Assembly (NCBI GenBank): GCA_023205875.1
Contig: CP060765.1
Span: 558,001 to 622,000, forward strand
Length of the DNA: 64,000 nucleotides
Source: Chloropicon primus
Taxonomy: Eukaryota; Chlorophyta; Chloropicophyceae; Chloropicales; Chloropicaceae
Direction: 5' to 3'
Made by a program: the position numbers and the translations under genes. The notes under the pieces were generated by a model. The model was not told the origin of the DNA, searched no databases, and worked only from the letters and a program-made list of their open reading frames with translations. Positions 12,071 to 16,021 of the stretch are shown piece after piece. The first letter of the stretch is position 1. Every line of letters starts with the position of its first letter.

Positions 12071-12919
12071 ATGGAGGTAGGAGTGACGAGGAGGGCGGCG
12101 AGTGGATTGCGAGGGAGGAGGAAGCTTGCGCGGTGGAGGGGATCCCGTCGCGATGGTAGAGTGAGACTGTCGTGCACGGCGTCGTCGTTGGATGAGTGGA
12201 ATGGGGTCTGCTTAAGTCAGGCTTGCCAAGCTGCGAAGAATCAGGCGACCCTGCTCGCGACGACTGGCCCCGTTGGGATGCTGGCAGCGTTTGGATTGCT
12301 GAAGTGGAACCAGGCGGGGGAGGAGGGGAGCGCTTCCAGCAGCGGGGCTTCGGTGGAGGGGTCTCCAGGGGAAGAGGAGGAGGAGGGGAGGGTGGTTGAG
12401 ATGGAGACCGATGTCTATGGCTTGGATGGCTATCGGCTGACTCGAGTGCCCAGAGGCTCCCCCGGCGCCAGGCTAAAGATTCTTTTGCCGGATATGGAGC
12501 GGCCGAGAACTTTCTACTTTGCTGAAACCGCAAAGAGGAAGAGCGTCGTGTTCGCCACGACGGTGGAACGGCCGGTGGGCATCGTCTTCGGGGAGTCTTC
12601 TGAGGGCAGGGTGGTCATCACCCAGGTCGACAAAGGCACGGATGCTTACAGGAAGTCCCAAGTCGCCAAGCTGGGGGAGGGTGATCGATTCTCTGCGCCG
12701 GAGGTGGGCGACCGCGTCCGCGCCTGCTCCTCCATCAATTTCTTCTACTCGCAGGCTTCCCTCTTTGGCGTCAAGCCTCCCGCGAGAACTGTAGTGCTCT
12801 TCGGAACGGAGGGGAAGTCCTTCGACGAGTTCTGCTCCGCTCTCTCCAAGTCCCAAGTGAGCGACGGGGACCTGACCCTCGTCCTGGAGAGAGACAAGGA
12901 GGAGGAGTCATCGCGATGA
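12071..12919 (+). CDS. probable plastid PDZ-like protein
   Basis: A 282-residue protein. The first 50 residues are Arg/Ser/Ala-rich with almost no acidic residues (MEVGVTRRAASGLRGRRKLA), as in a plastid transit peptide. A Glu-rich linker (about 105-115) follows. The C-terminal domain has a PDZ-like pattern: RPVGIVFGE, VVITQVDKGTDAYR, VGDRVRACSSIN. Small plastid proteins with one such domain are common in green plants, with roles mostly unknown. A TGTAA lies 36 nt after the stop. The Fanzor gene follows on the same strand. Confidence 0.72.
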   Translation: MEVGVTRRAASGLRGRRKLARWRGSRRDGRVRLSCTASSLDEWNGVCLSQACQAAKNQATLLATTGPVGMLAAFGLLKWNQAGEEGSASSSGASVEGSPGEEEEEGRVVEMETDVYGLDGYRLTRVPRGSPGARLKILLPDMERPRTFYFAETAKRKSVVFATTVERPVGIVFGESSEGRVVITQVDKGTDAYRKSQVAKLGEGDRFSAPEVGDRVRACSSINFFYSQASLFGVKPPARTVVLFGTEGKSFDEFCSALSKSQVSDGDLTLVLERDKEEESSR

Positions 12920-13335
12920 ACCACGCCCACGCACTTCTGTTTTGTATGTATACATGTAACGTAGGTCTGTCCAGGCATCCCCCTCCCCTCAGCCCAGTAC
13001 TATCGATGCTGGCAGAAGACGGGCGACGCTGGTGCGGGCAATGCCCATCCAAGAGACCTCCCTCTCCCCTCCTCTCCCCTGTCTGCTTCCCCCTTGGATG
13101 ATGATGATAGGCTGGGTGCTGTCCCTCAGTCCAGTCCAGTGGTGTGAGACTCAGCTGGCAGAAGACCAGAGTTGTTGGAGGTTTTCCCCTGTTGGTGGGA
13201 TTCCAGTGTATACCAGTTTGGTCACACCCAAAGGACAACCCACTAAGCGTTTTCTCGTGTTCTCACTTGCTGGACAAGGCCAATCTATAGTTACGAGGAG
13301 TTACGAGGAGGGCAGCGAGTGAAACCCTAACAGTC
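12920..13335. other. 5' flank of the Fanzor gene
   Basis: A 416-nt region before the Fanzor ATG. It contains a 13-bp direct repeat GCTGGCAGAAGAC at 13008-13020 and 13154-13166, and a tandem 10-mer TTACGAGGAG at 13291-13310. No terminal inverted repeat with the 3' flank was found. It probably holds the left part of the mobile element and its promoter. Confidence 0.45.
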
Positions 13336-15507
13336 ATGGCGCGATCAGGGAAGCGCCGTAAGAAAAAGGAGAAGCAGGGGAGTGGCTCGACGAGTTCCAC
13401 AAGGAGGTCGCACTCTGGCGAGAGTCATGCTCAGGGCGCTTCGAAGTCGGGGCAGGAGTCTCCGACGACGGAGCGGCCGTTACTTCCGTTCTGGAATCAG
13501 GGCTTGCAGTTGCTCTACGCGTTGTGCCTGCTTCCTACCGCGGACGACCCCGCCTCTGCGGGTGAGGGTTCGAGCACGCCTCGCAAGAAGCGGGGGGGGA
13601 AGCGGAAGGAGAAGCCGCTGGACGACCCCGCCTCTGCTTTCGAGGAGGGTTCGAGCACGCCTCGCAAGAAGCGGGGGGGGAAGCGGAAGGGGAAGCCGCC
13701 GGAGGCGGACGCCTCTGCGGGTGAGAGTTCGAGCTCGTCAGGCAAGCCTCGCAAGAAGCCTCGCAAGAAGGGCAAGAAGAAGAACAAGAAGAAGGGCAAG
13801 AAGAAGAAGAACAAGAGGGGGAAGAAAGCAGGGAAGCAGCCGGGTGGCTTGGCGGACGACAGCGTGAAGAAGACCTGGTTCTCATCGATCAAGAGAGAAC
13901 TTGAAGAGGTAAAGTGTCCGAAGACGGGATGGAGGTCGTGCTTGAACCTTCCAGAAGATTCTGTGGTATCCGTCGAGACATTGCAGTCGCCCGCCAAAAG
14001 GAAGAGGGAGCAGAAACTGAAGACCTCCAAGCTATTGTCGGAGCGAACGGTGATACGGACGAGGAAGCTTAGGATGCGCTTGAACCCTGAGCAGGCGAAG
14101 TGCCTTTGCAACTGGATGGGAGCTGCGCGTTTCACATACAACAAGTGTTTGGAGGCGGTCAAGAAGGAGGGTTTTCCGCTGGTTTGGACCGTCCTGCTGG
14201 ACAGATTTGTGACGGCCAAACCGCGACGCCCTGAGGTCTTTGAGGGGCTGGAGAAAGAGCTGAAAGAAATCCAATGCTCTCCACGGCCATGGACAAAACA
14301 GGAGGCAGAGCTTTTCGCGGCCAGAGAGAAGAGACTCGAGAGCCAAATTGGAGGCAGACGATTTCGCGCCGAAGTGGCCAAGGGCCGGGACTACGTTAGC
14401 GGGGCCTTTGTGAATCAGGAGCATCCTTGGCTGAAGGAAACCCCCTGTGCCATCGGACAAGCTGCCGTGCGAAGTCTGATCAAGGCATGGGATTCGAACA
14501 TCGCGAAGCAGGAAGCGATGAAGGAGCGCGGCGAGGAGAAGGGGCACCGCTTCGTTCTCAAGTATCGTCAACGTCAGCAACCGAGTTCTTGGACTATTGA
14601 AATTGATGCAAGAGAGTTAAAGAACGTGGAGACGATCGAAAGACCGAGAACGAGGCACAAGGATGACACGAAGCACAAGAAACGACGCAAGTGGACCAAG
14701 CTGGAGGTGTTCAAGAAGAAGATGGCCGGCGGGCCCCTGTACTTGACGGAGGAGGTCCCCGGGGGCAAGATCGAGGGTGCCGTGAAGATCACAAGAAATC
14801 GCCTTGGGCAGTTCCACATGCACATTCCCATCGCGACGCCATGGGATCGCCTGCCACCCCTGAAGCCTGAGAACAAGCGGAAGGTTGTCGCCCTGGATCC
14901 GGGAGTCAGGACCTTTCAGACGTCGTACTCGCCGCAAGAAGGCGTCGGGGAGTATGCCAAGGGCGAGCGAGGCTTCGCGAGGCTGTTCAACCTCTGCTGG
15001 AGGATTGATGAGATCATTTCCGAGCGCAAAGACCCAAAGGTGAAGCTCCCTTACCTCGACCGCCGCGACTTGAAGAGACAGCAATACGCCTGCATGGAGA
15101 AAATTCGAGGTCTCACTAACGAGCTTCACAAAAAGGTAGCCAACGATCTATGCAGGAGGTTCGACACAATCCTCCTCCCGGAGTTCAAGTCCCAAGACAT
15201 GGTGAAGAAGAACAACAACGGGAGACGCCGAGTGATCAGGAAGAAGACGGCTCGCACGCTCTTGACGTTGAGGCACTATGCGTTCAGAACGTTCTTGGCT
15301 TCCAAGGTGCTCTTGCACGGCAGTGAGCTGGCGATCGTGACGGAGGAGTACACCTCCAAGACCTGTGGCAGGTGCGGACACATCAAGAAGAACCTGGGTG
15401 GAGCAGAGGTGTACAAGTGCCAGAAGTGTGGCTTCAAGTGCGGTCGGGATGTGAACGGGGCACGCAACGTCCTCCTGAAGCACTTGCGTCAACCAAAAAG
15501 TGTGTAA
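13336..15507 (+). CDS. Fanzor (eukaryotic TnpB-like RNA-guided DNA nuclease family), Fanzor2-like
   Basis: A 723-residue intact ORF of the OrfB/TnpB superfamily. Domains: a very basic, repetitive N-terminal extension (1-235) with PRKKRGGKRK-type nuclear-localisation-like motifs; the OrfB N-terminal helix-turn-helix (about 238-275, KLRMRLNPEQAKCLCNWMGA, FTYNKCLEAV); a central REC/wedge-like part; and a RuvC fold. Catalytic acids are present: Asp521 (ALDPGVRTF), Glu616 (LLPEFKSQDM) and Asp705 (GRDVNGARN). A zinc ribbon (CGRCGH, then CQKCGF; Cys677/680/695/698) sits between RuvC-II and RuvC-III. ALDPGVRTF, YTSKTCGRCG and RDVNGARN closely resemble IS607-type TnpB proteins of algae and giant viruses (Fanzor2). 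Family knowledge: Fanzors cut DNA guided by an RNA made from the element's 3' end. No TnpA recombinase is visible nearby. Confidence 0.93.
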   Translation: MARSGKRRKKKEKQGSGSTSSTRRSHSGESHAQGASKSGQESPTTERPLLPFWNQGLQLLYALCLLPTADDPASAGEGSSTPRKKRGGKRKEKPLDDPASAFEEGSSTPRKKRGGKRKGKPPEADASAGESSSSSGKPRKKPRKKGKKKNKKKGKKKKNKRGKKAGKQPGGLADDSVKKTWFSSIKRELEEVKCPKTGWRSCLNLPEDSVVSVETLQSPAKRKREQKLKTSKLLSERTVIRTRKLRMRLNPEQAKCLCNWMGAARFTYNKCLEAVKKEGFPLVWTVLLDRFVTAKPRRPEVFEGLEKELKEIQCSPRPWTKQEAELFAAREKRLESQIGGRRFRAEVAKGRDYVSGAFVNQEHPWLKETPCAIGQAAVRSLIKAWDSNIAKQEAMKERGEEKGHRFVLKYRQRQQPSSWTIEIDARELKNVETIERPRTRHKDDTKHKKRRKWTKLEVFKKKMAGGPLYLTEEVPGGKIEGAVKITRNRLGQFHMHIPIATPWDRLPPLKPENKRKVVALDPGVRTFQTSYSPQEGVGEYAKGERGFARLFNLCWRIDEIISERKDPKVKLPYLDRRDLKRQQYACMEKIRGLTNELHKKVANDLCRRFDTILLPEFKSQDMVKKNNNGRRRVIRKKTARTLLTLRHYAFRTFLASKVLLHGSELAIVTEEYTSKTCGRCGHIKKNLGGAEVYKCQKCGFKCGRDVNGARNVLLKHLRQPKSV
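13543..13701 (+). repeat. tandem duplication inside the Fanzor N-terminal extension
   Basis: Two in-frame copies of a 78-81 nt unit (13543-13620 and 13621-13701) encode DDPASAGEGSSTPRKKRGGK and DDPASAFEEGSSTPRKKRGG plus basic tails. A third degenerate unit (EADASAGESSSSSG) follows. The copies differ mainly by three added bases, so the duplication looks fairly recent. Confidence 0.85.
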
Positions 15508-16021
15508 CTCCTCAGGGTTGCACATACGTTTGTTAGTACGGGCTGCCGTGCGTGGGCGGAAGTATTCGTTCATGTACGGTGGAATGGTCGTGGTAGGGCT
15601 GAATTACCCTGCCGAGAAACTTACAAACTCGGTGAAACGACCTTTGCAGAAAACTAACAGGTAAGTTGTGGCCGGTCTTCGCTCTCCGTGTTTCTCTCTT
15701 TCAGTGGAAAGGAGAACTTGCCTTTGTGCTTCCAGTATTGACTGTGATTTTCTTACCGTCCTTTCGTGACTTTTCTGTGTGCTGTTTTTGATCTGATGTC
15801 TGAACACCATAACAAGAGTTGGTGAGGAGGAGGGCGGAGGGCAACGAAGGGGAGGGGAGCCATGAGGGAGGGGGCGAGAGGCGTTGCCCGGCAGGGAGGA
15901 GGATTCATTTTCATGCCCGTCGAGCCTTGGGTGGTGGCGTAGAACAAGACAGCGAGATCACAGGCAGAGAGAGAGACAGAGAGAGAGACAGAGAGAGACG
16001 AGAGACAGAGAGAGATTTTAG
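15508..16021. other. 3' flank of the Fanzor gene: candidate guide-RNA scaffold, then a transporter leader
   Basis: A 514-nt non-coding region. Directly after the stop are several short inverted repeats, including GGTAGGG/CCCTGCC (15592-15613) and CCGAG/CTCGG (15612-15632). At 15661 a perfect donor (CAG|GTAAGT) and at 15704 a good acceptor (TCTCTCTTTCAG) could bound a 44-nt intron. A GACAGAGAGA tract (about 15963-16015) lies just before the transporter ATG. Confidence 0.5.
15592..15632 (+). ncRNA. candidate omega-RNA (guide scaffold) hairpins
   Basis: Two alternative hairpins start 85 nt after the Fanzor stop. One is GGTAGGG pairing with CCCTGCC (one G-U wobble, 8-nt loop); the other is CCGAG pairing with CTCGG (11-nt loop). 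The position matches where TnpB/Fanzor guide RNAs end, next to the element's right end. No guide or element boundary can be set from a single copy. Confidence 0.3.

Follow-up and report, generated by a model that had tools for sequence, protein, structure and literature searches.

The Fanzor gene in the window (the whole 64,000-nt stretch analysed here, Chloropicon primus RCC138 contig 12, 558001-622000) belongs to one of 30 long copies (L001-L030) of a 2.64-kb element with the ends TGTT...AACA. On balance, we lean towards a reading in which an IS607-derived Fanzor2 gene and its reRNA were captured in a carrier transposon, the guide is internal to the element, and the cutting of sister copies leaves scars. 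What is new here is a predicted scaffold end inside the element, together with the adjoining near-invariant 15 nt and a hypervariable window. The features are collected in Table 1.

Table 1 Features of the Fanzor-bearing element, in positions of the window.
Feature	Position	Strand	Basis or remark
Whole element, 2642 bp, TGTTGGAGG...CATAACA	13173..15814	+	Copies align inside and diverge outside
Left target-site duplication, AGAGT	13168..13172	.	Identical to 15815-15819
Right target-site duplication, AGAGT	15815..15819	.	Pairs with 13168-13172
Fanzor2-lineage nuclease gene	13336..15507	+	723 aa; Asp521, Glu671 (putative), Asp705, zinc ribbon Cys677/680/695/698
5' part common to Fanzor-free carriers	13173..13288	+	L061, L062 and L063 match element 1-116, 94-98%
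3' part common to Fanzor-free carriers	15685..15814	+	L061 and L064 match element ~2510-2642, 98%
Predicted omega/reRNA scaffold, ending ...AACTAACAG, 5' end undefined	15508..15660	+	Fold, near-identity of 30 copies, eleven remnants ending there
Pseudoknot 5' arm, TGTTAGT (predicted)	15531..15537	+	Complementary to 15653-15659
Pseudoknot 3' arm, ACTAACA, at scaffold end (predicted)	15653..15659	+	Complementary to 15531-15537
Candidate guide, GTAAGTTGTGGCCGG	15661..15675	+	Near-invariant in family; exact matches only in element copies
Hypervariable segment	15676..15701	+	28 sequences and 19 lengths in 30 copies

The nuclease gene is a single open frame running from ATG to TAA. Its product matches the Pfam families Cas12f1-like_TNB (residues 647-712, E 9.9e-18) and HTH_OrfB_IS605 (E 7.7e-7), while OrfB_IS605 (E 0.05) falls under the family cut-off and NCBIfam guided_TnpB reaches 93 bits against a cut-off of 100. 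The best solved structure is that of the TnpB-like protein L79 (PDB 9b0l; E 2.7e-19, residues 506-716), which is viral and differs in having 520 aa; we take it to be from mimivirus. A chance open frame is excluded, since all 723 positions stay open, with no stop, in 16 loci of the same genome (L001-L016, the window's included), at 96-100% identity. A genuine basic extension is present at the N-terminus, with in-frame repeats that differ from copy to copy, and the four zinc-ribbon cysteines, like Asp521 and Asp705, are invariant across 52 aligned sequences. The first-pass annotation, which had described a full-length intact TnpB/Fanzor-type ORF with these two features in a green-algal nuclear genome, is thus sustained on each of these counts. 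RNA-guided cleavage by the protein would be expected by analogy with characterised family members. Neighbouring genes in the window include one with a MOSC domain, one with an MA3 domain and one that looks, by eye, like an intron-containing transporter gene; the ORF at 12071 has no Pfam match.

Two of the three RuvC acids proposed earlier, Asp521 and Asp705, agree with the alignment of 62 relatives (non-identical proteins of at least 440 aa, out of 86 extracted), in which Asp521 is shared by 62, Pro522 by 60 and Asp705 by 61. The third, Glu616, does not: this residue is Glu in the window protein but in 0/62 relatives, whereas Glu671, six residues ahead of the first zinc-ribbon Cys, is Glu in 62/62. 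The Glu671 column is biased rather than independent because EEYTSKTC served as one of the search peptides; the residue-616 column is independent of the search. These columns indicate that the catalytic RuvC-II Glu would be Glu671 and not Glu616. The protein carries the DPG motif of RuvC-I (Asp521-Pro522-Gly523), and Glu671 appears to occupy the alternative-Glu position (Ealt, six residues before the zinc finger), with Ecan not used. DPG and this Glu are the Fanzor2-lineage fingerprint given in the available text of PMC10711439, and therefore the protein should be of the Fanzor2 lineage with residue 671 as its catalytic Glu. The Fanzor/TnpB motif D-X(125,275)-[TS][TS]XX-C4-X(5,50)-RD, as worded in the available text of PMC3627910, is present as D521, T673-S674, C677/680/695/698 and R704-D705.

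Placement among relatives points in the same direction. A contig-database search confirmed 150 relatives, and the 80 that were kept are all cyanobacterial; a viral scan with the C-terminal part of the protein returned 7 loci, and viral scans with the exact RNA pattern or the whole protein found no relative. In a quick 39-row tree, composed mostly of cyanobacterial relatives, with L080 as the only other eukaryotic row and L085 as a viral contig, the window protein is sister to L086 (a protein on a 252-kb virus contig) with an SH-aLRT of 99 and a long-branch warning. It thus groups with IS607-type TnpB and viral Fanzor2, and the suggested Fanzor2/IS607-like branch stands for the protein (DPG, alternative Glu, L086 as sister) but not for its surroundings, where no canonical IS607 element is found. 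The cyanobacterial pro-Fanzor TnpBs, which belong to IS607 elements, have DPG and the alternative Glu in common with the window protein; they differ in showing 25-33% identity, in lacking the basic repeat block and in residing in a different mobile element.

Searches of the genome (17,584,162 bp in 20 contigs) yielded 62 protein matches and 45 matches to the 3' region, from which the 30 long copies, the further copies that had been asked after, were resolved. Both ends are kept, by pattern, in 19/30 copies. Exact 5-bp duplications flank 16 of these 19 (all except L020, L025 and L026), compared with 5/342 mismatched pairs. Full-length open frames persist in 20 copies (L001-L016, L018-L021), and stops or frameshifts interrupt the other ten. 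For the whole protein, pN/pS is 0.64 among the first 16 copies and 0.61 among all 30; for residues 506-723, a part with very little synonymous diversity, it is 1.63 and 1.03, respectively. Selection on the Fanzor protein thus looks weak, which we count against our preferred explanation.

The inverted repeat of the element is TGTT/AACA only, and the 2642 bp hold no apparent transposase gene and no second long plus-strand gene. With the 5-bp duplications and without a second gene, this is not a canonical IS607 element; some published Fanzor2 elements likewise lack TnpA. When an autonomous partner was sought through the common 3' end, one of 27 matches with up to three mismatches lay outside the known copies and carriers (C18:118924, 3 mismatches). 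No transposase was found. The last ~14-57 bp are missing in seven copies (L007, L012, L013, L016, L019, L021, L030), and two of these shortened ends recur on carriers, both Fanzor-bearing and Fanzor-free (the latter being L062 and that in L065). Two Fanzor copies, L018/L065 (C5) and L021/L074 (C20), have an alternative 5' region of ~1.2 kb, 99.5% alike, which replaces the carrier 5' end and whose reverse strand resembles an ankyrin-repeat gene by eye.

A Fanzor2 gene carried by a non-IS607 transposon with a clear target-site duplication is also what has been reported from this species. According to the available text of Yoon et al. (2023, PMC10711439), Fanzor2s of C. primus, named Fanzor2*, reside in DNA transposons of the cut-and-paste type that have TIRs and TSDs, and the available text of PMC6731263 lists 25 C. 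primus genes similar to IS605-family transposases. This kind of gene is consequently known, and the candidate new Fanzor of the first-pass annotation is not a new find. PF07282 has 43 matches in the genome, four of which (C5:154870, C5:821497, C13:73514, C2:358209), of similar score, belong to another gene. Since this other group looks Fanzor1-like (judged on L080 only), the published Fanzor2* is very probably the present element. The available text of PMC10711439 was found to contain no census of the copies and no mention of Fanzor-free carriers, of remnants, of an internal scaffold end or of a hypervariable segment.

Further mobile-element-like sequences were seen in the same genome. L080 (C5:153800-157400), the one of the four loci that was examined, holds a second, divergent Fanzor-like gene with a weak Cas12f1-like_TNB match, probably a Fanzor1. 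A separate repeat family (L076-L079; C2:316320, C3:1404945, C16:68745, C9:638220), ~98% alike over at least 3.1 kb, may be another transposon; its encoded protein, up to 986 aa long, carries a serine-recombinase (Resolvase) domain.

Short Fanzor-free elements with the same 5' end lie at C1:1611466, C4:428457-429032, C5:347941-348490 and C2:1220323-1220610. These carriers share element positions 1-116 (1-68 in the C5 carrier) and parts of 2513-2642, some without the extreme 3' end. L061 measures 571 bp and has, by eye, the flanking repeat AGTGG, and L064, a Fanzor-less fragment, consists of the 3' 133 bp only; it starts in the variable segment, where three CCGTGTTTCTCT units stand. The shared sequence implies that a carrier already in existence either took up the Fanzor gene or lost it. 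We infer capture rather than loss because older Fanzor remnants exist without the carrier 3' part.

The pattern of the scaffold end has 43 matches in the genome, comprising the 30 main copies and 13 others. Eleven remnants were examined (L066-L073, two of which the pattern missed, and L081-L083); three one-mismatch matches (C4:451701, C9:529192, C18:196785), the second C16 copy of L066 and more diverged fragments (for example, C14:513915 and C9:68664) were left out of this set. Element-like sequence stops at AACTA[A/G]C[A/G]G in 11/11 remnants, of which nine end in AACTAACGG, L068 in AACTAGCGG and L073 in AACTAACAG, the last being the reading of all 30 main copies at this point. Beyond these ends the sequences are unrelated, barring simple repeats or a few bases in some pairs (L081-L083 by eye). 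The point where the remnants stop represents the right terminus of an older unit; by comparison with IS607 elements, it would also be the end of the reRNA scaffold. L083, a remnant of ~20 bp, lies between 17-bp direct repeats (score 17, where 110 mismatched pairs reach 12 at most); no convincing duplication was found in the other ten (scores 4-9, against a median of 6 in mismatched pairs). The Chlamydomonas Fanzor1 elements CRe-1/2/3, as described in the available text of Bao and Jurka (2013, PMC3627910), likewise include copies that are truncated on the 5' side and share a fixed 3' end, many of which carry direct repeats such as that of L083, but they are Helitron-associated, and a repeat is clear in only 1/11 remnants here.

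The 157 nt from the stop codon on (15505-15661) fold with a z of -3.68, and the predicted scaffold end lies inside the element, 154 bp short of the element end. The two predicted pseudoknot arms, the 5' arm starting 122 nt upstream of the 3' arm, are present in 30/30 main copies and 7/11 remnants (by eye, truncation or deletion has removed this part of the remaining four); such a 7-mer arises in 1.2% of mononucleotide shuffles of the stretch. In the available text of PMC10711439, Yoon et al. predict this kind of pairing in TnpB and Fanzor2 reRNAs and report it as needed for the activity of one IS607 TnpB. Rfam at gathering thresholds gave no match in 12900-16000. With the scaffold ending inside the element, the guide would come from the element itself (GTAAGTWGKGGCCGG and a variable tail) rather than from flanking DNA. 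The candidate 15 nt read GTAAGT[A/T]G[T/G]GGCCGG in the family, with an extra T in L009 and L027; positions 7 and 9 are biallelic, which counts against the internal guide. The 15-mer has 28 exact genome matches, all in element copies (28/30), and three one-mismatch matches outside them. A guide aimed at a host gene was considered and rejected, as the 20 matches of the window-copy 20-mer (up to three mismatches) are all in element copies.

Directly after the candidate guide, the copies cease to agree. Among 25-bp windows along the alignment, element positions 2501-2525 stand out with the haplotypes and lengths given in Table 1; the next most variable window has 11 haplotypes and falls within the coding repeats, and the 5' capture region has at most 9 per window. 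The segment (3-54 nt) is made up of a few copy-specific bases followed by carrier sequence that is variably shortened or repeated. Its lengths occupy 11/12 classes modulo the 12-bp unit, so slippage of the unit alone is no explanation. No indels are seen in the corresponding tract of three Fanzor-free carriers (L061, L062 and the short one in L065), a weak control because each holds a single CCGTGTTTCTCT unit and cannot slip; in the fourth carrier, L063, the tract is gone in a larger deletion. The RCC138 assembly was built from Nanopore reads with Nanopore and Illumina polishing and manual curation, and base-level errors in repeats, though possible, are an unlikely source of 19 length classes at one spot.

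The indel-rich segment begins at nt 16 past the predicted scaffold end. In the available text of PMC10432273, the Fanzors of Saito et al. cut their target at nt 14-21 (one enzyme at 9-14 on the target strand), and native Fanzor guides measure 11-21 nt. These positions fit a mechanism in which an IS607-derived Fanzor2 gene with its reRNA would have been captured by a short non-autonomous DNA transposon, the resulting 2.64-kb element would now spread by being moved in trans by a transposase, and the protein with its RNA would target sister copies, since the guide matches exactly only the element's own copies. Cutting may then occur ~15-21 nt past the scaffold, and end joining may leave a different scar in each copy. 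Taken alone, sister-copy cutting with end-joining scars is a tentative proposal to which we give less than even credence. The TAM would have to be compatible with ...AACAG, and such cutting would be costly. Per 100 bp, element 1601-2500 has on average roughly a quarter of the diversity of 301-1600 (hand average), which is at most suggestive of gene conversion near the break.

Cutting and repair directed at the element itself is attractive but unproven, and its main rival is a slippage-prone short intron. In that case a short spliceosomal intron (GTAAGT...TTTCAG) would have the segment as its interior, free of constraint and unstable through its pyrimidine-rich 12-bp repeats, with the Fanzor not cutting there. 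A short intron is possible because the variable segment is bracketed by a block that opens like a 5' splice site (GTAAGT, invariant in 30/30 copies) and by a 3'-splice-like TTTCAG at its close; the apparent intron of the neighbouring transporter-like gene also starts with GTAAGT (by eye), and two or three CCGTGTTTCTCT units stand in several copies as well as in L064. However, the implied lengths of 24-72 nt contrast with a mean of 152 bp in the available text of PMC6731263, the TTTCAG site is missing in L060, and the segment lengths are not multiples of 12. Splicing also gives no reason for the conservation of GGCCGG at nt 10-15, and the 5' capture junction shows no comparable haplotype number. 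We regard the intron as a serious possibility, though one that falls short of an even chance.

Two other readings concern the element as a whole. The reRNA might continue through the carrier 3' end, the TIR and the TSD, so that flanking genomic DNA serves as the guide and the internal pseudoknot is a leftover. This is what Yoon et al. state for Fanzor2*s in the available text of PMC10711439, where TIR and TSD are put inside the reRNA, against an internal guide, and the terminal 110 bp are mostly conserved among copies that keep them; but the remnants stop at the internal site and the pseudoknot arm lies there too, and we consider this arrangement unlikely. The TG...CA ends, the 5-bp duplications, the short forms without a Fanzor and, adjoining the carrier L063, a gag-like (by eye) open frame of 252 codons or more would also suit a solo LTR of a Fanzor-carrying retrotransposon. 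That frame, beyond which ordinary-looking long ORFs follow (L075), has no Pfam match above cut-off, and retrotransposons of the RVT_1 and rve kinds seem nearly absent, as genome-wide searches gave one RVT_1 match (C6:907829, a 1590-codon frame) and no rve integrase match. The solo LTR was rejected on these grounds as highly improbable.

Returning to a Fanzor2 captured with an internal guide, the element may, although we hold this to be rather doubtful, represent a natural self-targeting RNA-guided nuclease, with the guide locked in the element, its own copies as the sole exact matches and a scar beside the guide in almost every copy. In barcodes based on self-targeting guide RNAs, the guide's own locus is the target, and scars accumulate. 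The likeness to those homing guide RNAs, which are engineered, would be one of principle. Among the matches listed from the Fanzor, TnpB and homing guide RNA literature, including PMC11423790 in its available part, no title describes such a self-targeting locus. The question is testable, with an apparently element-encoded guide, thirty copies, carriers and remnants in one complete small genome and with two sequenced strains, RCC138 and CCMP1205, which are 99.91% identical. If the scars are Fanzor-made, the element would be a natural counterpart of the engineered self-targeting barcodes, and the scars would be evidence for Fanzor cutting in its native host.
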